From Rhodoplanes sp. (GTDB lineage Bacteria > Pseudomonadota > Alphaproteobacteria > Rhizobiales > Xanthobacteraceae), in NCBI RefSeq assembly GCF_013377085.1, contig NZ_JACAAX010000043.1, forward strand, positions 1-58,139: DNA of 58,139 nt, given 5' to 3'. Within the stretch, counting starts at the first letter, position 1; every line of letters begins with the position of its first letter. Below, piece by piece: positions 11,197-23,477 of the stretch. The position numbers and the translations under genes were made by a program. Under the pieces are notes generated by a model that did not search any database, had not been told where the DNA came from, and worked only from the letters and a program-made list of their open reading frames with translations.

Positions 11197-11494
11197 GATG
11201 CACCTGAGGGCTGCCGGTTGTTCGAGGCTGTTGTTCGGGGAGACAACCGGATAGAGCCATTGGAAAAATAAAGCGCACGTGGCTGCGCCTGACAGCGTAT
11301 TGCTGATCGGGATTTATTAAAATGCCGTATAATCTTCGGTAGGGCTTAATACCTACACTATCCGTAGCCTGGATTTGGACGATTCTCTCCGGCGCCATGT
11401 CTTACCGGCAGGCGATCTTCGCAGCCACCATGCTCAGCGCTATACTCTGACCAGCGGCAGCGGGACGATCTTGTTGCCGGAACGCGGATCAGCC
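11197..11494. promoter_or_regulatory. Divergent AT-rich promoter region
   Basis: This gap separates the minus-strand chemoreceptor from the plus-strand membrane protein. AT-rich patches around 11260-11350 (GGGATTTATTAAAATGCC, CTTAATACC) are likely promoter sequence for one or both. A TATACT-like hexamer lies near 11450. No operator or RNA element was recognised. Confidence 0.45.
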
Positions 11495-13552
11495 GTGATC
11501 GCAACGACTTTCGAGTCCGTGCTTGCCGCGTCGGTGGCCGCCGTCTTCTGTACGGCAGTGGGTTTTCCGATTGCCCGCCTCGTGCTGCCGCGCGCCGTCG
11601 TTTTGCCGGCCGCGCCGGCACTCGGTTTCGCAGCGCATTCGGCCGCAGCCCTGCCGGTGTTCCTGCTTTTCGGTTTTTCGCGCACGACGGTGGCCGCCGT
11701 GGCGATCGCCGCACTTATGGTCGCCGGACTCGTCGCGATCGGCATGGTCGCGAGCGACCGCCGCGCGGCGTGCCTGCGAGCCGCATCGTCGGATCGCGAG
11801 ACGACCTCCGTCCGGGCCGTGCTCGCACTGGTGCTGGCGGCCGCCCTCCTCGCCGTCGTGCCGGCCGCGGCGGTCGCCCCGAAAATTTCCGACGGCGCCG
11901 TCCTGCTGTCGGCCCCGATCTTCGACCACGCCAAGGTCGCCATCATCGACGGCATCGTCCGGCTCGGCCTGCCGCCGGCAAACCCGTTCTTCGGCGAGCA
12001 GGGCGAGGCCGGACGGCTCGCCTATTACTATCTCTGGCATGTCGCGGCGGCCGAGCTGTCGGCCGGCCTCGGCATCACGGGCTGGGCGGCCGACATCGGC
12101 CTCACCTGGTTCTCGGCCTTCGCCTCGCTCGGCGTGATGATGGGCGTCGCCGCCCGGCTGTCCGGCCGAATGCTTGCGGCGGCCCTGGTGCTGCCACTCG
12201 CGGCGGCGGGATCGATGCGGCCTGTTGTGTCGGCCTTGCTGGGCGGCGATCGGGTCGCGGAAATTCTCGACTGGCCATCGGGATTTTCCGGCTGGATGTT
12301 CCAGAGCGCCTGGGTGCCGCAGCATTTGTCGGCCGCCAGCACGGCGGTCCTCGCCGTGCTGGTGCTGCCGCGGCTCGCCGAACGTCGCGGGATCCGGCGC
12401 GATCTCGCCACCGTGGTGACGCTGGCGCTGCTGATCGCGGCGAGCTTCGCGCTGTCGACCTGGATCGGCGCCGTGGTGCTGCCGCCCGCCCTCGTCGTCG
12501 CGTGCGTCGTCCTGCTGTGGCGCGCCGCGCCGGCCGACCGGCCGCGGCTCCTGGCGCTGGCGGCGGTCGCGGGCGCGGCAGCACTGGTGCTCGCCGCACC
12601 ACTGATCGTCGACCAGCTCGGCACGGTGGGGGCGCGCGGGAACGCGGCGCCTCTGGTTCTGCGCCCCTTCCCGGTGCTGAACGCGGCACTGAACATACCC
12701 GAGACGCTGCACCGCGCCCTCGATCTCGCGGCCTATTGGCTCATCGAACTCCCCATCGAGCTGCCGGCCATCTACCCGGCCGGCCTCGCGGCAATGGCCA
12801 TCGCGCTCTTCGCCCGGCGCAGCGAGCCTGGGCGAAGCCTCACATTCACGCTGGTCGCGCTCGGGGGAGTCGGGCTCCTGGTGCCGTGGCTGATCGCCAG
12901 CACGCTCGGCGACAACAACGATCTCGGCCTGCGTGCCGTGCTGCCGGCGGTGCTGATCCTCACCGGCTTCGCGGCGGCTGGCCTCGCAGAGTGGCTGAGC
13001 CGTGGCCAATACCTCGCCGCGGCAGCCGCCCTGGCCGCGCTGGCGCTCGCCCTGCCCGACACCGTCCACCTCGTGCGGTCCGATCTCGCCGGCACCGAGA
13101 CGGCGTCGAGCCGGGCGCTCGCCGGAACGGCCGAGATGTGGGCGGCGGTGCGCCGGCATGCCGGCCCGGCCGAGCGCATCGCCAACAACCCGCTGTTTCT
13201 CGCCGACCTGACGCCGTGGCCCGTGAATCTCTCCTGGGCGCTGCTCGCAAACCGCAGCTCGTGCTTTCCGGGACGCGAGCTGGCGCTCGCCTACGCGCCG
13301 CTGCCGCCGGCGCGCCGCGACGCCATCGATGCGCAGTTCGTCCGCGTCTTCGCCGGCACCGGCACGGCGGAGGACATTTTCGACTTGGCGGAGCGTTCGG
13401 GCTGCCGGGTGGCGGTCGTCACGCCGCAGGACGGCGCCTGGACGCGCGACCTGTTCGCTGCGAGCCCACTCTATCGGCTGGCCGAGGAGCAGCCCGGCCG
13501 CTGGCGGATCTATCGCCGCAGCGACGTGGCGGCCGACCGTCCGCGGTCCTGA
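11495..13552 (+). CDS. Large polytopic membrane protein, GT-C-like, unknown role
   Basis: About 685 residues from the GTG at 11495. The frame is open to a TTG at 11375, but the extra 40 residues are polar and do not look like a membrane-protein start. About a dozen hydrophobic helices are visible up to residue 540, followed by a soluble C-terminal part of about 140 residues with three Cys. After the first helices comes SAPIFDHAKVAIID and then YYYLWHVAAAEL. An acidic/His loop after early helices, many helices and a soluble tail are the architecture of GT-C glycosyltransferases and DUF2298-type proteins. I do not recognise the family with certainty. It stands alone, convergent with the molybdoenzyme. 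Confidence 0.75.
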   Translation: MIATTFESVLAASVAAVFCTAVGFPIARLVLPRAVVLPAAPALGFAAHSAAALPVFLLFGFSRTTVAAVAIAALMVAGLVAIGMVASDRRAACLRAASSDRETTSVRAVLALVLAAALLAVVPAAAVAPKISDGAVLLSAPIFDHAKVAIIDGIVRLGLPPANPFFGEQGEAGRLAYYYLWHVAAAELSAGLGITGWAADIGLTWFSAFASLGVMMGVAARLSGRMLAAALVLPLAAAGSMRPVVSALLGGDRVAEILDWPSGFSGWMFQSAWVPQHLSAASTAVLAVLVLPRLAERRGIRRDLATVVTLALLIAASFALSTWIGAVVLPPALVVACVVLLWRAAPADRPRLLALAAVAGAAALVLAAPLIVDQLGTVGARGNAAPLVLRPFPVLNAALNIPETLHRALDLAAYWLIELPIELPAIYPAGLAAMAIALFARRSEPGRSLTFTLVALGGVGLLVPWLIASTLGDNNDLGLRAVLPAVLILTGFAAAGLAEWLSRGQYLAAAAALAALALALPDTVHLVRSDLAGTETASSRALAGTAEMWAAVRRHAGPAERIANNPLFLADLTPWPVNLSWALLANRSSCFPGRELALAYAPLPPARRDAIDAQFVRVFAGTGTAEDIFDLAERSGCRVAVVTPQDGAWTRDLFAASPLYRLAEEQPGRWRIYRRSDVAADRPRS

Positions 13553-13565
13553 ACACCGAGCTGCT

Positions 13566-14357
13566 TCAAATCCCGGCGAACCAATTGAAACCCTGCTTGC
13601 TCCAGAACGTCTCGGGGAACGTGTTGGTCACGCTGATGGCCGTGATCCATTTGGCGTTCTTGAAGCCGAGCTTGGTGCCCATGCGCAGCCGCAGCGGATA
13701 GCCGAACGGGTCGGTGATCGGCTCGCGGCCGTAGCGCGTCGCCAGGATGGTCTGCGGATGCAGCGCCGTCGCCATGTCGATGCTTTCGGTGTAGTCGTCG
13801 GCGCAGGTGAAGGCGACGTATTTGGCGGTGAGGTCGGCACCGATCCGCTGGAGGAAGTCCTTGAGCCGCACGCCCGACCACTGGCCGACATAGTCCCAGC
13901 CCTCGACGCAGATGTGGCGGACGATCAGCTCGGTCTCGGGCAGCGCCGCCATCTGCTGCGCCGTCCAGCGCCGCTTGTCGCCGATCAGGCCGGCCAGCTC
14001 GAGCGTCCAGGTGGCGCCGTCGAGCGGCCGGATCTCCTCGACGTCGTAATAGGCGTTGAAGCGCGCCGGCTTCAGCACGGCCGATTCCGGATAGGTCGGC
14101 GCCAGGTGGTCGCCGCGGAAGATCGCCGCCTGCACGCGATCGTTCCACTGCGACACGGCGAGCAGCGCCTTGCGGACCGAACCGTCGTCGGCGACGTCGC
14201 AGCCGGTCAGCATGGTCAAGGCGCCGAGACTGAGCGTGCCGCGAAGAAGCTTGCGGCGGTCGATCTCGGCGAGCAGCCCCTTGTGCTCGCGAAGGATGCT
14301 CTGGTCGATGCCCGCGGCCGGGCGAAACTGCGAGCGGGCGGGCGTGGTCCTGGCCAT
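13566..14357 (-). CDS. Periplasmic molybdopterin-dependent oxidoreductase (sulfite oxidase fold)
   Basis: 263 residues from the ATG at 14357; an open frame runs further upstream but only through the neighbouring gene. The N-terminus carries a twin-arginine signal (DRRKLLRG, Arg 34-35) whose hydrophobic part ends in LTGC at Cys53, a lipobox, so it may be a Tat-exported lipoprotein. The molybdenum ligand is likely Cys150 in RHICVEGW, matching the RxxCVExW pattern of YedY/MsrP and sulfite oxidases. Its cytochrome b partner lies 23 bases upstream, so electrons probably pass between quinone pool, cytochrome b and this enzyme. The substrate is unknown; MsrP-type sulfoxide reduction is one possibility, but the membrane partner is not the MsrQ type. 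Confidence 0.88.
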   Translation of the reverse strand: MARTTPARSQFRPAAGIDQSILREHKGLLAEIDRRKLLRGTLSLGALTMLTGCDVADDGSVRKALLAVSQWNDRVQAAIFRGDHLAPTYPESAVLKPARFNAYYDVEEIRPLDGATWTLELAGLIGDKRRWTAQQMAALPETELIVRHICVEGWDYVGQWSGVRLKDFLQRIGADLTAKYVAFTCADDYTESIDMATALHPQTILATRYGREPITDPFGYPLRLRMGTKLGFKNAKWITAISVTNTFPETFWSKQGFNWFAGI

Positions 14358-14380
14358 GTCTCGTCTCCGTCCCTTTGAGG

Positions 14381-15061
14381 TCATTCGGCCGGCATGGCGG
14401 CGCTGTGCGAGGACGCCGGATCGACGCGCGGGCCGCCGGTCAGCATTGCCAGCAGCGAACGCGGCACCAGCAGCGCGAGCGCGACATGCACCGCCAGGAA
14501 CAGGACGATCGCCGCCATGCACAGGAAGTGCACCAGACGCGCGGTCTGAAAATCGTAGAAGAGCACCAGCAGGCCCGAGAGCTGCACCGGCTTCCAGATC
14601 GCCAGCCCGGACAGCACGACGACGATGCCGACCAGGATGATGCCGACATAGAGCACACGCTGCACCGCGTTGTAATGGGTGAGATCGTCGTGCCTCAGCC
14701 GGAAGGTCAGCGCATCCCGCACGGTCGCCAGCACCTCGTGCGGCCATATCGGAAAGAGCTTGCGGCGGAACCGGCCCGTGACGATGCCGTAGATCAGATA
14801 GGCGAGGCCGTTGAGCGCGATCACCCACATGCCGAAGAAATGCCATTGCAGCGCGTGCTGGGCGTACTTGCCGAGCGTGATCGCGTCGGGAACATGCAGC
14901 CAGCCGAAGATCACCTCGTCGTTGTAGATCTTCCAGCCGCTGGCGATCATGATCAGCATGGCGGCGGCGTTGATCCAGTGCATCAGCCGCAGCGGCAGCG
15001 GATGCAGCCGCGCCGGCGGCGACGGCTCGACCTCTGCGACCTTCATCGTCATGCCGTCCAT
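14381..15061 (-). CDS. Cytochrome b, membrane partner of molybdoenzyme
   Basis: 226 residues with four to five membrane helices. Likely haem-ligand histidines are in RLMHWINAAAM, LQWHFFGMW, RLVHFLCMA and FLAVHVALAL, the pattern of the cytochrome b561 / Ni-Fe-hydrogenase b-subunit family. The start may be the ATG at 15061 or the ATG five codons on (MKVAEVEP). It precedes the molybdopterin oxidoreductase by 23 bases and almost surely forms a complex with it at the inner membrane, exchanging electrons with quinone. Confidence 0.87.
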   Translation of the reverse strand: MDGMTMKVAEVEPSPPARLHPLPLRLMHWINAAAMLIMIASGWKIYNDEVIFGWLHVPDAITLGKYAQHALQWHFFGMWVIALNGLAYLIYGIVTGRFRRKLFPIWPHEVLATVRDALTFRLRHDDLTHYNAVQRVLYVGIILVGIVVVLSGLAIWKPVQLSGLLVLFYDFQTARLVHFLCMAAIVLFLAVHVALALLVPRSLLAMLTGGPRVDPASSHSAAMPAE

Positions 15062-15387
15062 CGGGATGCTCCGTTTGCCGCGCCGCGCGATCGAGAACCG
15101 TCGTCGGCGCGGATGCTAATCGCCGGCATCGCGCGCCGCCAAGCCGACTGCGCAACACAACTTCGTGTCTCCCGTCACCTCGGACCGTGACGGCGGTCTC
15201 GACGTGATACGATCGAAAGCCCCGATGTTAGGTCGGTCCGGTCACGTCGCGCTCCGCCGTGTTGCGTGTTGATCGATCGTGAGCACGACGCCGTGTAACA
15301 ACGATCCGGGCCGCTGCGTATAGACCGTGAGGCGAAGCGTGGCCGCACAGGCGGCGCGATCGTCGCCGGACGACGAGGACGGGCACC
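15062..15387. other. Divergent intergenic region
   Basis: This 326-base gap contains the upstream regions of the cytochrome b operon (minus) and the PRC-barrel gene (plus). I see no recognisable operator, RNA or repeat in it. Confidence 0.4.
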
Positions 15388-15804
15388 ATGGCAACGCCGA
15401 GCGGAGAGACTACACGACAACCGACGCCGCGGCCGGAGGAGATCACGCCCGAGGCCCGGATGGAGCGGCGCTGGCCGCAACCCGTGCAGGTCGGCGCGCT
15501 GATCGGCCTGCCCGTGCTCGACGACGACGACCGCACGCTCGGCGTCGTCCGTCGCGTGATGCGCACGCCGGCCGACAAGATCGTGCTGATCGTCGACCAC
15601 CATGCGTGGTACGGGCTCGGCTGGCTCGGCCTCGGCGTTCGGCCCGTGTCGGTGCCGATCGAGGTGGTGGCGATCTTCGGACGCCAGCTCGCGTCGCTCG
15701 ACATGCCGCCGGCCGACTACGCCGCCGCGCCGACCTGGGCGCAACGGCAGGAGACCGATATTCCGGCCGGCGAGACCATCAGGATCGCACTGACCCGGCG
15801 GTGA
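15388..15804 (+). CDS. PRC-barrel domain protein
   Basis: 138 residues. After a polar N-terminus, residues about 35-90 (VGALIGLPVLDDDDRTLGVVRRVM...KIVLIVDHH) have the strand pattern of a PRC-barrel, the small domain of RimM and the photosynthetic reaction-centre H subunit. GLGWLGLGVRPVSVPIEVV completes the barrel. Stand-alone PRC-barrel proteins are common in rhizobia and their role is mostly unknown. No signal peptide is seen. It is followed by 187 bases before the next operon. Confidence 0.7.
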   Translation: MATPSGETTRQPTPRPEEITPEARMERRWPQPVQVGALIGLPVLDDDDRTLGVVRRVMRTPADKIVLIVDHHAWYGLGWLGLGVRPVSVPIEVVAIFGRQLASLDMPPADYAAAPTWAQRQETDIPAGETIRIALTRR

Positions 15805-15991: not shown

Positions 15992-16876
15992 ATGCAGGCT
16001 GGCGCCACCTCCGCGAACGGTTTCGTCCCCGACGCGACGCGCCGAGACGAGAGTTGCGGTATCGCCGTGATGGCCAAGGCTTCGGCGCCGGGCCGCACCA
16101 AGACGCGGCTGACGCCGCCGCTGACGGCCGACGAGGCGGCACGGTTCAACACGGCTTTCCTGCAGGACATCGCCGCCAATCTCCGGGCCGCTGCGCGGCA
16201 GGCCGCCGCACGACACGCGGCGATCGCCGGCTACATGGCCTATGGGCCGCCCGGGCCGGAGTCCTTGTCGTTCTTCCGTAAGTCGCTGCCGCCCGACATC
16301 GGCCTGTTCGAGATGTGGCGCGGCGATTTCGGCGTCTGTCTCTACGAGACCATCGTGGCCCTGCTCGACCATGGGCATACCAGCGCCGTGGTCCTCAACT
16401 CCGACAGCCCGACGCTGCCGACCGCGCTGCTGGTCGAGACGGCCACGCGGCTCGCCGCGCCCGGCGACCGTGCCGTGCTCGGGCCCTCTACGGACGGCGG
16501 CTACTATCTGCTCGGCCTGAAGGCGGCGCATCGGCACATGTTCGCCGACATCGCCTGGAGCACCGAAAGAGTGGCCGAGCAGACCATCACGCGGGCCCGC
16601 GAGATCGGGCTCGCGCTCCACATCCTGCCGGCCTGGTACGACGTCGACGACGTCGACGCGTTGCGGCGCCTGCACGCCGAGGTGAACGATGCCGAGCGGA
16701 CCGAGCCCGCCCCCGCGCACGGCCTCGTGCCGCATCGCGCCCGTCACAGCGCGGCCCTTCTGACCGACCTTTGTCGACGAGGAGACTTCATGCATCGCCT
16801 GAACCTTCCGGAGCTGGCCGCTGCGCCGGCCGGTCGCCCTGCCCTTGCCGCGACCGAGGTGGCCGCATGGAAGTGA
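15992..16876 (+). CDS. TIGR04282/DUF2064 family transferase (CofC-like)
   Basis: 294 residues from the ATG at 15992, which has GAGGAG eight bases upstream; a GTG at 15881 would add 37 residues without a ribosome site. MAKASAPGRTKTRLTPPL is the nucleotide-binding signature near residues 28-45, with NSDSPTLP and GPSTDGGYYLLGL further on, typical of the GT-A-like fold of DUF2064/TIGR04282. Relatives are CofC-like nucleotidyl or glycosyl transferases associated with radical SAM genes, some linked to arsenosugar formation. About 60 residues after the core are variable. It is the first gene of a four-gene operon; its stop overlaps the start of the radical SAM gene. Confidence 0.85.
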   Translation: MQAGATSANGFVPDATRRDESCGIAVMAKASAPGRTKTRLTPPLTADEAARFNTAFLQDIAANLRAAARQAAARHAAIAGYMAYGPPGPESLSFFRKSLPPDIGLFEMWRGDFGVCLYETIVALLDHGHTSAVVLNSDSPTLPTALLVETATRLAAPGDRAVLGPSTDGGYYLLGLKAAHRHMFADIAWSTERVAEQTITRAREIGLALHILPAWYDVDDVDALRRLHAEVNDAERTEPAPAHGLVPHRARHSAALLTDLCRRGDFMHRLNLPELAAAPAGRPALAATEVAAWK

Positions 16877-17925
16877 TGGTGCCCCGCGTCGATCCGCGTC
16901 GCTATTTCGAAAGCGTCCAGGCGCGCGAGAACCGCACCGAGCGGCCGCCCGTCTGCGTCTATCTGGAGACGACCAACCGCTGCAATCTTCTGTGCACGAC
17001 CTGCCCGCGCACCTACGAGGAACTCGAGCCGCCGGCCGACATGAGCTGGGATCTGTTCGTCCGCATCGTCGACCAGATTCCGGACCTGCAGCGCGCCGTG
17101 CTGCACGGCGTCGGCGAGCCTATGCTGGTCAAGGCCCTGCCCCGCATGGTCCGCTACCTGAAGGACCGCGGCGTCTACGTGCTATTCAACACCAACGGCA
17201 CCGTGCTGAACGATCGCAACGGCCGCGCCCTGATCGCCGCCGGGCTCGACGAGATGCGGGTGTCATTCGACGCCGCCAACGCGACATCGTATCTGGCGAT
17301 CCGCGGCAAGAACTACTTCGACCGCATCCTGAAGAACGTCCGCGCGTTCCGCGACCTGCAGAAGCGCGAGGGCCACGAGCGGCCGCGCGTCTCCGCCTGG
17401 CTCACCGGCCTGCGCGAGACCATCGCCGAGCTGCCCGACTTCGTCCGCGTCGCGGCGGAGACCGGCGTCGAGGAAATCTACCTGCAGCGGCTGGTGTACT
17501 TCGAGGAGAACGCCATCGGCCGGGCGCGGCCCGACCAGGCGCTCTATGAAAAGCTGTCGGCCGACGAAACGGTCCATATCGATCGTGCGACGGAACTGGC
17601 GCGCGCGCTCGGCGTGATGTTCAGCGCCTCCGGCGCGGCCTCCGAGCCCGGCATGAGCCTCAAGCGCAGCGACGACGGCTCGCCGTGGTCGATGTGCCGG
17701 CGGCCCTGGACCGTGATGTATTTCACCGCCAACGGCCGGGCGCTCCCCTGCTGCATCGCGCCGTTCTCGCAGCGCGGCTACGAGAACTACACGCTCGGCG
17801 ACGCCACCCGGGAGTCGCTGCGGGACATTTGGAACGGCGAGTCATATCGGGACTTCCGGTCGGGCCTGATGTCCGACGCGCCGCCGCGCGCCTGCGCGAG
17901 CTGCGGCCTGCGCTGGAGCCTGTGA
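16867..17925 (+). CDS. Radical SAM protein with C-terminal SPASM/twitch-like cysteines
   Basis: 352 residues. The 4Fe-4S site that binds S-adenosylmethionine is Cys39-x3-Cys43-x2-Cys46 in TTNRCNLLCTTCPR; the following HGVGEPML and FNTNGTVL match the GGEP and later strands of the fold. C-terminal Cys at about 277, 295, 296, 343 and 346 fit a shortened SPASM or twitch pattern (C-x12-G-x4-C ... C-x2-C), so at least one auxiliary cluster is likely. Start ATG overlaps the upstream gene by ten bases (a second ATG at 16876 is possible), and its stop overlaps the next start as TGATG. It is not the ArsS/DUF3641 type. The substrate is unknown. Confidence 0.88.
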   Translation: MEVMVPRVDPRRYFESVQARENRTERPPVCVYLETTNRCNLLCTTCPRTYEELEPPADMSWDLFVRIVDQIPDLQRAVLHGVGEPMLVKALPRMVRYLKDRGVYVLFNTNGTVLNDRNGRALIAAGLDEMRVSFDAANATSYLAIRGKNYFDRILKNVRAFRDLQKREGHERPRVSAWLTGLRETIAELPDFVRVAAETGVEEIYLQRLVYFEENAIGRARPDQALYEKLSADETVHIDRATELARALGVMFSASGAASEPGMSLKRSDDGSPWSMCRRPWTVMYFTANGRALPCCIAPFSQRGYENYTLGDATRESLRDIWNGESYRDFRSGLMSDAPPRACASCGLRWSL

Positions 17926-18710
17926 TGGAGGCGTCCCGCTCCACCCGGCCCGCTCCGGGCGTCGCCCTGGTGATCCCGACCTTCAACGAGGTCGAGTCGA
18001 TCGGCGCCGTCGTCCGCGCCGTCTCGCGCGAAACCATCGACGAGATCATCGTCGCCGACGGCGGCAGCACCGACGGCACGACCGAGGCCGCCGTGCAGGC
18101 GGGCGCCCGCGTCGTCGACGCCGGCCGCGGCTACGGCCGCGCCTGCCTGCTCGGCGCCGAGGCGACCAAGGCCGGCATCGTCGCCTACATGGACGGCGAC
18201 GGCGCCGACGATCCGGCCGCGCTGACGAGCCTGCTCGCGCCGATCCGGGCCGGCGCCTGCGACTTCACCATCGCGTCGCGCACCCGCGGCGAACGCGAGC
18301 CGGGCAGCATGGCGGCGCATCAGGTGCTGGCCGGAACGGTGGCGGGCGGATTGATCGGCCTCCTCTACGGCGTCCGCTACACCGACATGTGCGCCCTGCG
18401 GGCGATCCGCCGCGACCGCCTGATGGCGCTCGGCATGCGCGAACTCGGCTACGGCTGGAATCTCGAGATGCAGATGCGGGCCGCCCGGGCGGGACTTCGC
18501 ATCGCCGAGATCCCGGTGTCGTATCGCTGCCGGATCGGCGGCGAATCGAAGGTCGCCGGCAGCCTCTTCGGGACGCTGCGGGCCGGCAGCCGCATCGTCG
18601 CCACCTTCGCCCGAGTGGCGCTGGAGCGCGCGCCCAAGAGCATCGGCACCGGCGCGGCCGGGCCGGCCGCTGCGGGTGTGGCCAGTCCGCAGCGGGGGCC
18701 GCGATCATGA
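17925..18710 (+). CDS. Family 2 glycosyltransferase
   Basis: 261 residues. VALVIPTFNEVESI, IIVADGGSTDGT and YMDGDGADDP are the nucleotide-sugar and metal (DxD-like) motifs of GT2 enzymes close to dolichyl-phosphate mannosyltransferase and TIGR04283 proteins. GYGRACLLGA and a C-terminal GGESKVAGSLFGTLRAGSRI follow. There is one moderately hydrophobic segment (VAGGLIGLLYGV) but no clear membrane anchor. Its ATG shares bases with the radical SAM stop, and its stop overlaps the phosphorylase start, so translation is coupled. It probably transfers a sugar to the product made by the radical SAM protein. Confidence 0.87.
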   Translation: MEASRSTRPAPGVALVIPTFNEVESIGAVVRAVSRETIDEIIVADGGSTDGTTEAAVQAGARVVDAGRGYGRACLLGAEATKAGIVAYMDGDGADDPAALTSLLAPIRAGACDFTIASRTRGEREPGSMAAHQVLAGTVAGGLIGLLYGVRYTDMCALRAIRRDRLMALGMRELGYGWNLEMQMRAARAGLRIAEIPVSYRCRIGGESKVAGSLFGTLRAGSRIVATFARVALERAPKSIGTGAAGPAAAGVASPQRGPRS

Positions 18711-19579
18711 ACGACGGCTCGCTCGCCCGCTTCGCCACGCCGCTGCTCGCCCGACGCGATCATCATCGGCCGTCGGTGTTCCGGCCCGAGAACATGCTGC
18801 GCGAGGCGCGCCGCCAGAAGGGGCTCGGTGCCGGCCGCGTGCCGCGTGTCTGCGTGCTCGATCCCGACGGCGACATCTGCGACCATGTGCGCCGCCACCG
18901 CGACGCGCGTCCCTCCGGCGCCTGGGCCTGCTATCACACGCGCCTGTGGGAGTGGGAGCAGGACGGCGTGCCACACGGCATCGTCGGCTGCGCGGTCGGC
19001 GGCTCGTTCTCGGTGCTGGTCGCCGAGCAGCTCTTCGTCTCGGGCTGCGAGTTCCTGATCAGCATCGCCTCGGCCGGCCAGATCGCCGACACGGTGCCGC
19101 CGCCCTGCTACATCCTGATCGCGCGGGCGTTGCGCGACGAAGGCACCAGCCATCACTACGTGCCGCCGGCCGAGTATGCCCGGCTCGACCCGGCGCTGCA
19201 GACCCTGTCGATCAACGCGTTCCGCGACGCCGGCATCGCCGTGCAGGTCGGTGCGAGCTGGACCACCGACGCGCCGTTCCGCGAGACCGCCGAGATGATC
19301 GCGGCCCGCAAGTCAGCCGGCATCCTCACGGTGGAGATGGAGGCGGCGGCGCTCTATGCCTTTGCCGAGGCGCGCGACGTGCCGGTGGTCTGCCTCGCCC
19401 ATGTCAGCAACCAGCTCGGCTGCGTCGACGGCGACTTCGAGAAAGGCGACGGCAACGGCGTGCTCGGCTCGATGGCGCTGATCTCGACGCTCACCTCGGC
19501 CTGGCGGGCCAGCAGAGCGTTTGCGAGCGAAGCGGGAACCGGTTCGCGTGAAGAAGGCGCTCTGTCTGTAAACTTATAG
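18707..19579 (+). CDS. Nucleoside phosphorylase-family protein
   Basis: 290 residues. The purine/uridine phosphorylase fold is shown by GVPHGIVGCAVGGSFSVLVAEQL, LISIASAGQI and TVEMEAAALYAFAEA; the last holds the Glu-Met-Glu ribose-binding motif. Family members release a base from a nucleoside by phosphorolysis or hydrolysis. It is the last gene of the coupled operon (ATGA overlap). About 25 C-terminal residues (after AWRASRAF) are encoded by an intergenic repeat element that runs on past the stop, so the natural end of the protein was probably shorter. Position beside a radical SAM gene recalls HpnH-HpnG and arsenosugar logic, where an adenosyl adduct loses adenine. Confidence 0.85.
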   Translation: MNDGSLARFATPLLARRDHHRPSVFRPENMLREARRQKGLGAGRVPRVCVLDPDGDICDHVRRHRDARPSGAWACYHTRLWEWEQDGVPHGIVGCAVGGSFSVLVAEQLFVSGCEFLISIASAGQIADTVPPPCYILIARALRDEGTSHHYVPPAEYARLDPALQTLSINAFRDAGIAVQVGASWTTDAPFRETAEMIAARKSAGILTVEMEAAALYAFAEARDVPVVCLAHVSNQLGCVDGDFEKGDGNGVLGSMALISTLTSAWRASRAFASEAGTGSREEGALSVNL

Positions 19580-19638: not shown

Positions 19639-21348
19639 TCACGCCTCGTCCGGCTTGCGGCGCATGAAGTCGAAGTCGCAGCCTTCGTCCGCCTGCAGCA
19701 CCGTGCGGTAATACAGCCGCGCATAGCCGCGTTCGGCCCACTCCGGTTCGACGATGGCGCCTTGCGCCGCGCGCCGGCGCGCGAGCTCGGCGTCGTCGAC
19801 CAGCACGTCGATGCGACGCGCCGCGACATCGAGCCTGATCTGGTCGCCGGTCTGCACCAGCGCCAGCGGCCCGCCGTCGGCCGATTCCGGCGTGATGTGC
19901 AGCACGATGGTGCCGAACGCCGTGCCGCTCATCCGCGCGTCGGAGATGCGCACCATGTCCTTCACGCCCTGGCGGCCGAGCTTCATCGGGATCGGCAGAT
20001 AGCCGGCCTCGGGCATGCCGGGCGCCCCCTTGGGGCCGGTGTTGCGCAACACCAGCACGTCGTCGGGCGCGACGTCGAGATCCGGATCGTCGATGCGCGC
20101 CGCCATGTCGGCGGTCGACTCGAACACCACGGCGCGGCCGGTGTGCTGCAGAAGCGCCGGGGTCGCGGCGCTGTGCTTGATCACGGCACCGCGCGGGGCG
20201 AGGTTGCCGCGCAGCACCGCGACGGCGCCGACCGGCTTGATCGGATCGGCGGCCGAGCGGATCACGGTCTGCCCCGGCACCTCCTCGGCGGCGGCGACCA
20301 CGTCGCGCATCGTGCCGCCCATCACGGTCGGGGCGTCGAGATCGATCAGCGAGCCGAGTTGCTGCATCAGCTTGGGCATGCCGCCGGCATGGTGAAAATG
20401 CTCCATGTAGTGGTCGCCGGACGGCTTGAGGTCGACCAGCACCGGCACGTCGCGGCCGATCGTGTCGAACGTGTCGAGGTCGATCTTGTGCACGGTGCGG
20501 TTGGCGATCGCGGTCAGGTGGACGATGCCGTTGGTCGAGCCGCCGATCGCCTGCAGCACCACCTGGGCGTTGCGGAACGCGGCCGGGGTGAGGATCTCGC
20601 TCGGGCGCGGGCCGCCCGACACCGCCATCTCGGCGGCGCGGCGGCCGCTCGCCTCGGCGAGGCGCACCCGCTCGGCATGCGGGGCCGGGATGGTCGCGCT
20701 CATCGGCAGCGACAGGCCGAGCGCCTCGGTCATGCAGGCGATAGTCGAGGCTGTGCCCATCACCATGCAGGTGCCGACCGAGGGTGCGAGCCGGCCGTTG
20801 ACCTGCTCGATCTCCTCCTCGTCGAGCTTGCCGGCCCGGTGGGCGCTCCACAGGCGCCGGCAGTCCGTGCAGGCGCCCAGAACCTCGCCCTTGTGATGGC
20901 CGACCACCATGGGGCCGACCGGCACCACGACGGTCGGCAGATCGACGCTCGCGGCCGCCATGATCTGGGCCGGCAGCGTCTTGTCGCAGCCGCCGATGAC
21001 GATGACGGCGTCCATCGGCTGCGCCCGGATCATCTCCTCGGTGTCCATCGCCATCAGGTTGCGCAGGAACATCGAGGTCGGATGGGCAAAGCTCTCGTGG
21101 ATCGAGATGGTCGGAAAGACCATCGGCATGGCGCCGGCCAGCATGACGCCGCGCTTGGCCGCCTCGATCAGGGCCGGCATGTTGCCGTGGCAGGGATTGT
21201 AGTCGCTGCCCGTGTTGGTGATGCCGACGATCGGGCGCTCGAGCGCATCGTCCGAATAGCCCATGGCCTTGATGAAGGCCTTGCGCAGGAACAGCGAGAA
21301 ACCGGCGTCACCATAGCTCGTGAGGCCCTTGCGCAAGCCCTTGCTCAT
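19639..21348 (-). CDS. IlvD/Edd family sugar-acid dehydratase
   Basis: 569 residues. Cys53 (NPCHGN), Cys121 (GGCDKTLPA) and Cys194 (VGTCMVMGTAS) are the iron-sulfur ligands, with the spacing of L-arabinonate dehydratase, which holds a 2Fe-2S cluster and Mg. Members remove water from aldonic acids or dihydroxy acids. The substrate is more likely a sugar acid than dihydroxyvalerate, because the gene sits with a GntR regulator and a tricarboxylate-type binding protein rather than with branched-chain amino-acid genes. AAGGAG precedes the ATG at 21348. The 2-keto-3-deoxy product could feed the semialdehyde dehydrogenase at the left end if a second dehydratase exists elsewhere. Confidence 0.9.
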   Translation of the reverse strand: MSKGLRKGLTSYGDAGFSLFLRKAFIKAMGYSDDALERPIVGITNTGSDYNPCHGNMPALIEAAKRGVMLAGAMPMVFPTISIHESFAHPTSMFLRNLMAMDTEEMIRAQPMDAVIVIGGCDKTLPAQIMAAASVDLPTVVVPVGPMVVGHHKGEVLGACTDCRRLWSAHRAGKLDEEEIEQVNGRLAPSVGTCMVMGTASTIACMTEALGLSLPMSATIPAPHAERVRLAEASGRRAAEMAVSGGPRPSEILTPAAFRNAQVVLQAIGGSTNGIVHLTAIANRTVHKIDLDTFDTIGRDVPVLVDLKPSGDHYMEHFHHAGGMPKLMQQLGSLIDLDAPTVMGGTMRDVVAAAEEVPGQTVIRSAADPIKPVGAVAVLRGNLAPRGAVIKHSAATPALLQHTGRAVVFESTADMAARIDDPDLDVAPDDVLVLRNTGPKGAPGMPEAGYLPIPMKLGRQGVKDMVRISDARMSGTAFGTIVLHITPESADGGPLALVQTGDQIRLDVAARRIDVLVDDAELARRRAAQGAIVEPEWAERGYARLYYRTVLQADEGCDFDFMRRKPDEA

Positions 21349-21485
21349 TGTCGTCTCCTTGCGGCCCGCGTCCGTCGGTCGGGCCTCGCCATGTCGGATC
21401 ACTGTACAGGACGCCGGCGCCGGGGCGGCTCCGGTCTTCTCATGCGAGCCCTTCCGGGGAGGCAGGGCTCGCCCGTCGACGGCCG

Positions 21486-22451
21486 TCAGAACGGCTCCAG
21501 CCCGGCCTTGGCGACGATGTCGCGATAGCGAATCCGCTCGGCGGCGGCAAACGCCGTGAACGCGTCGGGCGTGATCGGGGCCGCGACGGCGCCGATCTCC
21601 ATCAGCTTCGCGGCCATCTCGGGCGTACCGTAGATGCGCTTGATGTCGGCGGCGATCTGCTCGACCACGGCGCGCGGCGTGCCGGCCGGCGCGAACAGTC
21701 CGTGCCAGGACGGCGCATCGAAGCCCGGCAGGGTCTCGGCGATGGTCGGCAGGTCCGGCGCCGTCGGGCTGCGCTCCGTGCTGGTGACGGCGATGGCCCG
21801 CACCGTGCCGGACTTCGCCAGCGGCCAGGCGAACGTGATGTTGTCGAAGGCGAGGTCGACATGGCCGCCGGCGAGCGCGGCGGCGACGTCGTTCGAGCTC
21901 TTGTAGGGCACGTGAACCAGCTTGATCCCGGCCATCATCTGGAACAGCTCGGCCGGCAGATGCGTCGCGCTGCCGACGCCCGACGAGCCGTACACCAGCG
22001 GGTCCTTGCGCGACTTCGCATAGGCGATCAGCTCCGGCACGGTCTTGACCGGCAACCTCGGAGTGACGGTCAACAGGTTCGGCACCTTGGCGAACAGGCT
22101 GATGGCGACGAAGTCCTTGTCGGCGTCGTAGCGCGGGTCCTTGTAGACGAAGGGCGCGATGGCGTGGGTGCTGGCGGTGCCGACCAGGAGCGTGTAGCCG
22201 TCGCCCTTGGCGCGCGCCACCCAGGCGGCGCCGAGCGTGCCGCCCGCCCCGGCCTTGTTCTCGACCACGAACGAGGTCTTGTACTTCTCCTGCATGCCCT
22301 GGGCGAACAGGCGGCCGAACATGTCGGTGGTGCCGCCCGCCGAGAACGGGATGACCACCGACACGGGCCGGGTCGGCCAAGTCTCCTGGGCTTGCGCCGC
22401 CGCCCCTGTCGCGAGCAGCACGCCGACCGCCAGGGCCATCAGCTTTCGCAT
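21486..22451 (-). CDS. Bug family (TTT) periplasmic substrate-binding protein
   Basis: 321 residues with a signal peptide (MRKLMALAVGVLLATGAAAQAQ). WPTRPVSVVIPFSAGGTTDMFGRL, then VVENKAGAGGTLGA and VYGSSGVGSATHLPAELF, are the signature blocks of tripartite tricarboxylate transporter receptors, which bind carboxylates in the periplasm. No TctA/TctB membrane genes are in the window, as is common for orphan Bug proteins. It sits between the GntR gene and the dehydratase on the same strand, so its ligand may be the sugar acid handled by the dehydratase. Confidence 0.93.
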   Translation of the reverse strand: MRKLMALAVGVLLATGAAAQAQETWPTRPVSVVIPFSAGGTTDMFGRLFAQGMQEKYKTSFVVENKAGAGGTLGAAWVARAKGDGYTLLVGTASTHAIAPFVYKDPRYDADKDFVAISLFAKVPNLLTVTPRLPVKTVPELIAYAKSRKDPLVYGSSGVGSATHLPAELFQMMAGIKLVHVPYKSSNDVAAALAGGHVDLAFDNITFAWPLAKSGTVRAIAVTSTERSPTAPDLPTIAETLPGFDAPSWHGLFAPAGTPRAVVEQIAADIKRIYGTPEMAAKLMEIGAVAAPITPDAFTAFAAAERIRYRDIVAKAGLEPF

Positions 22452-22501
22452 TCTTCGCTCCCTTGTTTCTTCGTCTTGCTTCGGTGCAGCGGCACCACGT
22501 C

Positions 22502-23212
22502 TCACGAACCGGACACGTCCTCCACGGCGGCGATGCGGGCCCGGCCCGCGCCCGACGCGACTCGCGCCAGATAGTCGGCCTTGCTGATCTGCAGGTGCTC
22601 GACGCAAAGTTGCGCGAGCGCCCAGCGGTCGCGGCCACGCAGCAGATCGATCATGATGTCGTGCTGGCGCACCGACACCTCGCGCCCGGCGCGGTCGGCG
22701 AGGTTCTTGGCGCGCATCGGCAGGGTCAGGCCCATATACTCCTGCAGGGTGCGGACCAGATAGGGATTGCCGCAAGCGGAAAACAGCACGAGGTGAAACG
22801 CGTCGTTCGCCTCGTGGACGCCGCGCAGGTCGTCGTCGCGGATGCAGCCTTTGTAGCGTTCCTGAATGGCGACGAGATCGTCGACGACGTCGTCCGGCGC
22901 CGGCAGCGGGATCGACAGCGCCGCCTGCCGGGTCAGGAACTCGCGCACCTCGTAGATCTTCACGACCTCGTCGGCCGAATAGGAGCGAACCGTCGCGCCG
23001 ATGTTCTTCTCGCGGCGGACCAGGCCGGCCTGCTCGAGCTGCACCAGCGCCTGGCGGATGCAGTGGCGGCTGGCGCCATGGCGGGTCATCAGCCGGTCCT
23101 CGACCAGGCGGGCGCCCGGCGCGAGCCGGCCGAAGATCACGTCCTCCTCGATGCGACGCACGACCTCGCGCAGCGCGAGGTCGTGGGCCGTCGATGGGGA
23201 AACCGCGGTCAT
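22502..23212 (-). CDS. GntR family transcriptional regulator (FadR/FCD type)
   Basis: 236 residues. The winged-helix N-terminal domain spans about 10-80 (LREVVRRIEEDVIFGRLAPGARLVEDRL, then SRHCIRQALVQLEQAGLV). The C-terminal helical FCD ligand domain has conserved metal-type residues (ANDAFHLVLFSACGNPYL, RQHDIMIDLLRGRD). Such regulators usually repress the neighbouring catabolic operon and are released by its substrate or an intermediate. First gene in gntR-bug-ilvD order, 50 bases ahead of the binding protein; the operator has not been located. Confidence 0.92.
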   Translation of the reverse strand: MTAVSPSTAHDLALREVVRRIEEDVIFGRLAPGARLVEDRLMTRHGASRHCIRQALVQLEQAGLVRREKNIGATVRSYSADEVVKIYEVREFLTRQAALSIPLPAPDDVVDDLVAIQERYKGCIRDDDLRGVHEANDAFHLVLFSACGNPYLVRTLQEYMGLTLPMRAKNLADRAGREVSVRQHDIMIDLLRGRDRWALAQLCVEHLQISKADYLARVASGAGRARIAAVEDVSGS

Positions 23213-23477
23213 GGCGGGGCCACTCGGGCCGCTGCGCGGGGCGCAACGAGCGACGGAACCGTCCCCCTTTTGCCGAATATTGTCAATAATCCACCCAGAG
23301 ATCCGCGCAATCGCACTGTACGGATGCCGATTATCGAGAATTGTGGCCGGTTTGGCCGCGGGTGGCCCCAGCACCCCCGGCGCACCCGGCGGACCCGGTG
23401 TGCACCATCGTCGCACGGTGATCCGCGCTCGGCTCCGGCGCGTAGACCAAATCGACACGAGGCCGAAAGGACATGCC

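Follow-up and report, generated by a model that had tools for sequence, protein, structure and literature searches.

What does a bacterium make with a radical S-adenosylmethionine (SAM) enzyme that is encoded between two putative sugar-handling transferases and a nucleoside phosphorylase-like protein? This question is raised by an operon of Rhodoplanes sp., which lies at positions 15992-19579 of a stretch of 58,139 nucleotides (contig NZ_JACAAX010000043.1 of assembly GCF_013377085.1; hereafter the window) and encodes a DUF2064 protein, a radical SAM enzyme, a family 2 glycosyltransferase (GT2), and a PNP_UDP_1 family protein (hereafter PNP). The four-gene set is a real, conserved operon. Its products probably carry out glycosylation from a lipid carrier, with a radical SAM enzyme that acts on a sugar. 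More tentatively, and somewhat short of an even chance, we propose that the operon encodes a methylthioxylose-type lipid-carrier pathway in a radical SAM version, in which 5'-methylthioadenosine (MTA) would become a methylthio-pentofuranose; both the substrate and the product are what we infer.

All four genes are open reading frames on the + strand and every junction between them overlaps, as the first-pass annotation of the window had described. The start codon of the radical SAM gene (ATG at 16867, with a second in-frame ATG at 16876) lies inside the DUF2064 gene, the radical SAM and GT2 genes meet in TGATG (17923-17927), and the GT2 and PNP genes meet in ATGA (18707-18710). The same annotation had likened the two transferases to the TIGR04282/TIGR04283 pair. 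The first half of that assignment holds narrowly, with DUF2064 scoring 136.9 bits against a TIGR04282 cut-off of 134, and the second half does not, with GT2 at 44.6 bits against a TIGR04283 cut-off of 182. DUF2064 also matches PDB entry 3cgx, a "putative nucleotide-diphospho-sugar transferase" (E = 1.2e-15).

To place the operon in context, we compared 81 loci, namely the best 80 of 128 relatives found by scanning a genome collection with two exact peptide patterns, and one contig from a viral collection. The loci cannot be counted as independent, since several come from different strains of a single genus and one genome supplies both L093 and L099. They belong mostly to Alphaproteobacteria, and the pattern-scan relatives include Xanthobacter, Bradyrhizobium, Methylobacterium, Beijerinckia, Bosea, Roseomonas, and Sphingomonas. 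One looser gene set belongs to Actinomycetota, where a Miltoncostaea plasmid (L213) has a radical SAM gene whose product is 45% identical, with GT87, GT2, and DUF2064 genes on the same strand at a distance of about 4 kb. The core gene set is sporadic but wide in its distribution. True radical SAM orthologs (64-82% identity) were found in four others among 60 related genomes, a number that counts the one with the window, and in none of the five same-genus genomes examined. Counting the window's genome, an ortholog is present in 4 of 249 genomes evenly sampled from the order, and a relative of more than 70% identity in 3 of 398 genomes evenly sampled from the phylum.

In 73 of the 81 loci, the radical SAM gene is preceded by DUF2064 and immediately followed by GT2, all on a single strand, and an arrangement kept so often is not due to chance. 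Among the eight exceptions, four are at a contig edge (L103, L107, L111, L115), two have GT2 moved upstream (L101, L102), and two have no DUF2064 match though the upstream sequence is present (L099, L116). The junction between the radical SAM and GT2 genes measures −23 to +8 nt in 72 of 74 loci, as measured by a script that picks the start nearest the stop and is thus biased to tight values. Whole-genome tests took in 80 of 86 entries (55 carriers, and 25 non-carriers of the window's family), including 50 of the 80 genome-collection loci (L038, L054, and L056 are apparently the same contigs as G007, G009, and G024); gene absences in these tests rest on six-frame searches, and some assemblies are incomplete. 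GT2 was found in 55/55 carriers and 7/25 non-carriers. PNP, in turn, directly follows GT2 in 12 of the 81 loci, occurs anywhere in the analysed stretch in 33, and gave no match at E 1e-20 in 18 of the 55 carrier genomes. Because of these orders and whole-genome counts, we regard DUF2064, radical SAM, and GT2 as a tight unit and PNP as accessory. The co-occurrence of all four genes outside close relatives, on which the first-pass annotation had staked its proposal, thus holds for three of the four genes.

The best NCBIfam match of GT2 is AglJ (120.6 bits, cut-off 325). Its residues 13-222 align with an archaeal dolichol-phosphate mannose synthase (5mlz) and residues 8-209 with ArnC, and from this homology it is a putative user of polyprenyl phosphate. 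A GT87-like membrane glycosyltransferase is encoded in 54 of the 81 loci (the copy in L062 exceeds the Pfam cut-off, with 28.7 vs. 25 bits). The window has instead the gene 11375-13552, which ends 2.4 kb upstream of the operon and whose product had zero matches in Pfam and NCBIfam searches. A simple script places 12 hydrophobic segments in this protein, and its predicted model (pLDDT 82.4, pTM 0.87) has nine Foldseek matches in the PDB at E ≤ 1e-3 (TM-scores by query, 0.36-0.47), every one of them a GT-C enzyme or a chain of an OST-containing assembly (DPY19, ArnT, OST, PglB). Proteins of this window type are found in 16 of the 81 loci, both types together in none, and neither type in 11, most of which are short contigs (L044, L099, and L104 are not). 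Hence, two GT-C-class proteins with no match to each other seem to fill one slot. Given that GT2 is accompanied by a GT-C-class transferase in the window and in 70 of the 81 loci, and that it resembles lipid-carrier synthases, the module most likely performs extracytoplasmic glycosylation from a lipid-phosphate sugar. The glycosylation step of the first-pass annotation is therefore retained.

The radical SAM protein has a Pfam SPASM match. Its cysteines listed in Table 1 are invariant across a 46-row alignment in which five rows are only 26-32% identical; L124, L036, and L057, whose coordinates ran through stops, were excluded from the alignments. Since the protein ends in CASCGLRWSL and the cysteines of a second auxiliary cluster are absent, we assign it a one-cluster twitch and not a full SPASM set, by the usual definitions of the two motifs. 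The earlier description of these cysteines as SPASM/twitch-like is narrowed accordingly to its second term. In a Foldseek search, the predicted model (pLDDT 82.4, pTM 0.86) is closest to DesII (8.3e-15), followed by SkfB, SuiB, and BlsE, and the VIA-align Z values are 23.9 for SkfB, 23.5 for DesII, 23.1 for SuiB, and 22.7 for BlsE. The sugar-nucleotide enzymes DesII and BlsE share the fold at about 20% identity, and the peptide maturases match equally well, so the predicted fold by itself does not decide between a sugar and a peptide. We favor a sugar because no precursor peptide was seen at the 81 loci, five sister loci have an epimerase, and glycosylation partners are present throughout. An apparent radical SAM paralog between the DUF2064 and radical SAM genes was rejected as an artefact of single-linkage clustering; the gene in between is GT87-like.

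GT2 relatives occur in 39 of the 249 genomes of the order sample, including all four radical SAM genomes, and a GT87-type gene is clustered with the GT2 relative in 16 of 24 loci compared. In five sister loci (L167, L168, L169, L170, L193), an epimerase of the short-chain dehydrogenase/reductase (SDR) type is present and a radical SAM ortholog is not; the ortholog was not found in the genomes of these loci either (G016, G021, G022, and G031; G645). Conversely, a close SDR epimerase or MTA phosphorylase (MTAP) gene is found in 0 of the 81 radical SAM loci. The one epimerase tested (L193) is GalE-like, at 139 bits against a cut-off of 262. The epimerase gene is accompanied by a cystathionine-lyase-like gene, DUF2064, and GT2 in L168, L169, L170, and L193, and by nearby YedY, b561, and PRC genes in L167, L169, L170, and L193.

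The alphaproteobacterial SDR proteins are 52-59% identical to the SDR of an Arthrobacter plasmid (L215), whose gene overlaps an MTAP gene in a cluster that also has GT2, DUF2064, methyltransferase, GT87, and YedY-like molybdopterin oxidoreductase genes. The same genes are found on a Kitasatospora plasmid (L214), spread over both strands. With the MTAP model, the Kitasatospora protein scores 298 bits (cut-off 275) and the Arthrobacter protein 265 bits, just under. These clusters share GT2, DUF2064, a GT-C-class enzyme, and YedY-like genes with the loci studied here, and differ in having an epimerase, MTAP, and a methyltransferase in place of the radical SAM gene. We take their gene set to be the one responsible for methylthioxylose capping in Mycobacterium. 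Seven of the eight plasmid records with a GT2 match were examined. Among them, Streptomyces L217 has SDR, GT2, DUF2064, and YedY-like matches and, within the stretch, neither an MTAP nor a GT87 match, Pseudoalteromonas L216 has GT87, GT2, and DUF2064 and no MTAP, and Nonomuraea L219 has GT2 only. As separate observations, rhodanese-like genes stand beside the GT87-GT2 pairs in 8 of the 24 loci (L195, L198, L199, L200, L206, L208, L209, L211), the L199 protein matching the NCBIfam model "rhoda_near_glyco" below its cut-off, and in Methylobacterium L218 and L102 an aminotransferase-like (Aminotran_1_2) gene directly follows the GT2 or the radical SAM gene.

MTAP was not found in 9 of 60 genomes searched (six Xanthobacter genomes, G022, G077, and G099). 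In the 59 genomes searched for both enzymes (G109 was outside the kinase search and the joint count), a methylthioribose kinase (MTRK) gene lies beside the cluster in 7 of the 9 MTAP-less genomes (six Xanthobacter and G022) and in 0 of the other 50, and MTRK is located elsewhere in the genome in eight MTAP-bearing genomes. MTA nucleosidase (MTAN, TIGR01704) was found in 0 of 24 genomes, with a positive control in 9 of 14; other nucleosidase families were not searched. Within that scope, the MTRK-adjacent PNP of Xanthobacter is therefore a natural candidate for MTA cleavage. G022 has MTRK, and this PNP was not found there. Xanthobacter L048, L051, and L059 and G022 share a block in the order MTRK-PRC-b561-YedY-GT-C, which adjoins the radical SAM core in the Xanthobacter loci and the epimerase core in G022. 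Because the same block stands beside either core, the radical SAM and epimerase cores appear to be interchangeable.

PNP itself was found in 37/55 carriers and 5/25 family non-carriers (Fisher's test on whole genomes, P = 1e−4, kinship ignored). Since it was not found in the remaining 18 carriers, it is not obligate, at least in this form. The first-pass annotation had compared the operon with hopanoid synthesis by HpnH and HpnG. A scheme of that kind, with PNP freeing adenine as an obligate step, is not supported, in view of the 18 genomes, the score of PNP with the HpnG model TIGR03468 (21.5 bits, cut-off 187.1), and two motif sites. In a 47-row alignment of PNP orthologs, from which matches shorter than 220 residues were left out, Asn235 is kept in 47/47 and Ser119 in 46/47. 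At the first site, three of five aligned solved purine phosphorylases have Asp and two have Asn; at the second, the aligned solved enzymes have Arg. We assume from general enzymology that Asn indicates 6-oxopurines rather than adenine, for which Asp would be expected, and that Ser indicates a weak phosphate site and hence a nucleosidase. On that assumption, Ser119 would agree with a kinase as the partner of PNP. Because the motif argues against adenine release and the MTRK neighborhood argues for it, we neither accept nor dismiss PNP as an adenine-freeing enzyme. Away from the core (L155-L165, L171), PNP family genes have a methyltransferase-like neighbor in 4 of 12 loci and an ArsR-rhodanese-like neighbor (named by reading) in 4 of 12.

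We propose that MTA would first be depurinated to 5-methylthioribose-1-phosphate, either by the MTA phosphorylase of the genome or by the operon's PNP together with methylthioribose kinase. DUF2064 would activate this compound as a nucleotide sugar, and the radical SAM enzyme, in the place taken by a GalE-like epimerase in some sister clusters, would change the stereochemistry or oxidation of the sugar. GT2 would then put the sugar onto polyprenyl phosphate, from which the GT-C enzyme (GT87 or the 11375-13552 protein) would move it to an acceptor outside the cytoplasm. The thioether, or a sulfoxide formed from it, may be the target of the YedY-like/b561 pair. What is directly seen are gene sets, their order, mutual exclusions, and fold and family matches; extracytoplasmic glycosylation is the better supported half of the proposal, and the sulfur sugar is the half that we infer.

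According to a 2024 paper, methylthioxylose is added outside the membrane by a GT-C enzyme from a decaprenyl-phosphate donor, with MTA as the start, and it is called unclear whether this sugar exists beyond lipoarabinomannan assembly (PMC11127046). Capping of mycobacterial lipoarabinomannan resembles the proposed pathway in the lipid-phosphate sugar donor, the GT-C transferase, and an MTA-derived donor as proposed input. It differs in that here a radical SAM enzyme replaces the epimerase, another PNP class replaces the adjacent MTAP, and YedY, b561, and PRC genes are neighbors. A DUF2064-type gene is presumably a further shared element. The ribose derived from SAM in the first-pass annotation survives in spirit, in that MTAP is found with these glycosylation genes in clusters on two actinobacterial plasmids; the HpnH-type adenosyl route attached to it finds no support.

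Table 1. Genes of the operon and its upstream neighborhood in the window
Feature	Coordinates	Strand	Evidence
DUF2064/TIGR04282 protein, putative nucleotidyltransferase	15992..16876	+	TIGR04282 136.9 bits; PDB 3cgx match
Radical SAM enzyme	16867..17925	+	CxxxCxxC cysteines C39, C43, C46 and twitch cysteines C277, C295, C296, C343, C346
GT2, putative polyprenyl-phosphate sugar synthase	17925..18710	+	Family and solved-structure alignments
PNP_UDP_1 family protein, putative nucleosidase or phosphorylase	18707..19579	+	Pfam match; aligned orthologs
GT-C fold membrane protein, alternative to GT87	11375..13552	+	Predicted model and Foldseek; real start probably downstream of 11375
YedY/MsrP-like molybdopterin oxidoreductase	13566..14375, start approximate	-	PF00174 99.3 bits; MsrP model 82 bits vs. 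cut-off 207
Cytochrome b561-type membrane partner	14381..15061	-	Name by reading; weak b-type cytochrome matches
PRC-barrel-like protein	15388..15804	+	Name by reading; no NCBIfam match

The likely partner genes upstream of the operon (11375-15804) fall outside the coordinates of the original finding. Across the 81 loci, the neighborhood of the core takes three forms. Type A, the form of the window, has YedY in 30, b561 in 31, and PRC in 25 loci. Type B is marked by SelD next to the core, either by itself or as a fusion with an oxidoreductase, in 16 loci (L062, L098, L110, L112, and similar); 14 loci have a third radical SAM gene together with a putative selenate-transport binding protein of the TIGR04553 type. 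Type C consists of genes resembling Rv1679 (acyl-CoA dehydrogenase), Rv1680 (SBP-like), and Rv1681 (radical SAM) in 18 loci, seen in the range L072-L097 (mostly Bradyrhizobium), and in Miltoncostaea L213, with the Rv1679 and Rv1680 models matched below their cut-offs. That Rv1679-Rv1681-like genes stand next to the core in two phyla is a hint that they share a pathway. Another 18 loci, many of them short contigs, show none of these types. On the opposite strand downstream of the operon (19639-23246), open reading frames read as an IlvD/Edd-type dehydratase-like gene, a tricarboxylate-type binding protein, and a GntR regulator.

Several observations weigh against the methylthio-sugar pathway or parts of it. 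An adjacent MTAP occurs only in the actinobacterial clusters, in 2 of the 7 plasmid loci examined, and in none of the alphaproteobacterial sister loci. Among L193-L211, the 19 sister loci taken from the order sample, a close SDR is confined to L193, and most GT2/GT87 pairs in that sample have neither an epimerase nor a radical SAM gene. The likeness to the Mycobacterium gene set, presumably Rv0535-Rv0541c, is one of names. The seven genomes with adjacent MTRK (six Xanthobacter and one of the window's family) amount to one or two evolutionary events, and the p-value for them takes no account of kinship. In the genome of the window itself, MTAP is present and MTRK is not. Asn235 suggests that neither MTA nor 5'-deoxyadenosine is the substrate of PNP. 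Peptide maturases tie with DesII in the VIA-align comparison of the radical SAM model. By E-value, the best solved match of GT2 is a soluble glucosyl-3-phosphoglycerate synthase, over residues 11-110 only. No flippase gene was recognised, and no search was aimed at one. Finally, the type B (selenium) and type C (Rv1679-81-like) neighborhoods are left unaccounted for.

Some of these observations would fit a lipid-carrier glycosylation with an ordinary hexose or another sulfur-free modified sugar, in which the radical SAM enzyme would be DesII- or BlsE-like and PNP and MTRK would only recycle 5'-deoxyadenosine and MTA. GT87-GT2 pairs are widespread with no radical SAM, SDR, or MTAP gene in the vicinity, the top structural matches include DesII and BlsE, and PNP was not found in the 18 carriers noted above. 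This explanation leaves open why two actinobacterial plasmids combine these glycosylation genes with MTAP and an epimerase, and does not account for the YedY-like neighbors, and we consider it possible but rather unlikely.

The scheme of an ArsS- or HpnH-like enzyme, which would add 5'-deoxyadenosyl to an acceptor, after which PNP would release the base and the transferases would glycosylate the ribose, is improbable. In these known pathways, too, a phosphorylase or TIGR04282 protein neighbors a radical SAM enzyme, DUF2064 passes the TIGR04282 cut-off, and PNP is enriched in carriers. Nevertheless, the operon's proteins fall below the HpnG and TIGR04283 models, the other neighbors differ, PNP is not universal among carriers, and the twitch cluster and the epimerase of the sister loci point to sugar chemistry. 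The pathway thus appears distinct, as the first-pass annotation had proposed. Neither the HpnH model (TIGR03470) nor the ArsS model (TIGR04167) is among the 25 of 46 radical SAM matches listed; the VIA-align list also contains neither protein, which carries no weight.

A maturase of a ribosomally synthesized and post-translationally modified peptide, with a distant precursor, is very unlikely. SkfB and SuiB match the predicted model as well as DesII does, and the tungsten oxidoreductase maturase model TIGR04317 is the best NCBIfam match of the radical SAM protein, but its score of 144.4 bits is below the cut-off of 380. No conserved precursor peptide was found among open reading frames of 22-95 amino acids within 6 kb in the 81 loci, where any such frame was common to at most two other loci. 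Moreover, the radical SAM domain match begins at residue 34 after one short helix, and there is therefore little room for a leader-binding domain. The peptide-maturase grouping that the first-pass annotation had named as its own refutation consequently looks unlikely. Use of selenophosphate by the operon is just as doubtful despite the type B loci, and selenium as a general link was rejected, as SelD exceeds its cut-off about equally often in carriers (29/55) and non-carriers (14/25; P = 0.81).

Returning to the methylthio-sugar pathway, we speculate, with little confidence, that a radical SAM epimerase replaces the NAD-dependent one in a widespread route from MTA to a sulfur pentofuranose beyond mycobacteria, possibly with a selenium analogue at the loci with SelD and selenate-transport genes. 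Our searches of an open-licence library turned up no description of this gene set, and an earlier one may exist. If the proposal is true, methylthio-pentose glycosylation would extend to many soil bacteria, in which a radical enzyme does the job of an ordinary epimerase, and DUF2064, the unnamed GT-C family, and the YedY-like neighbors would gain a possible function.

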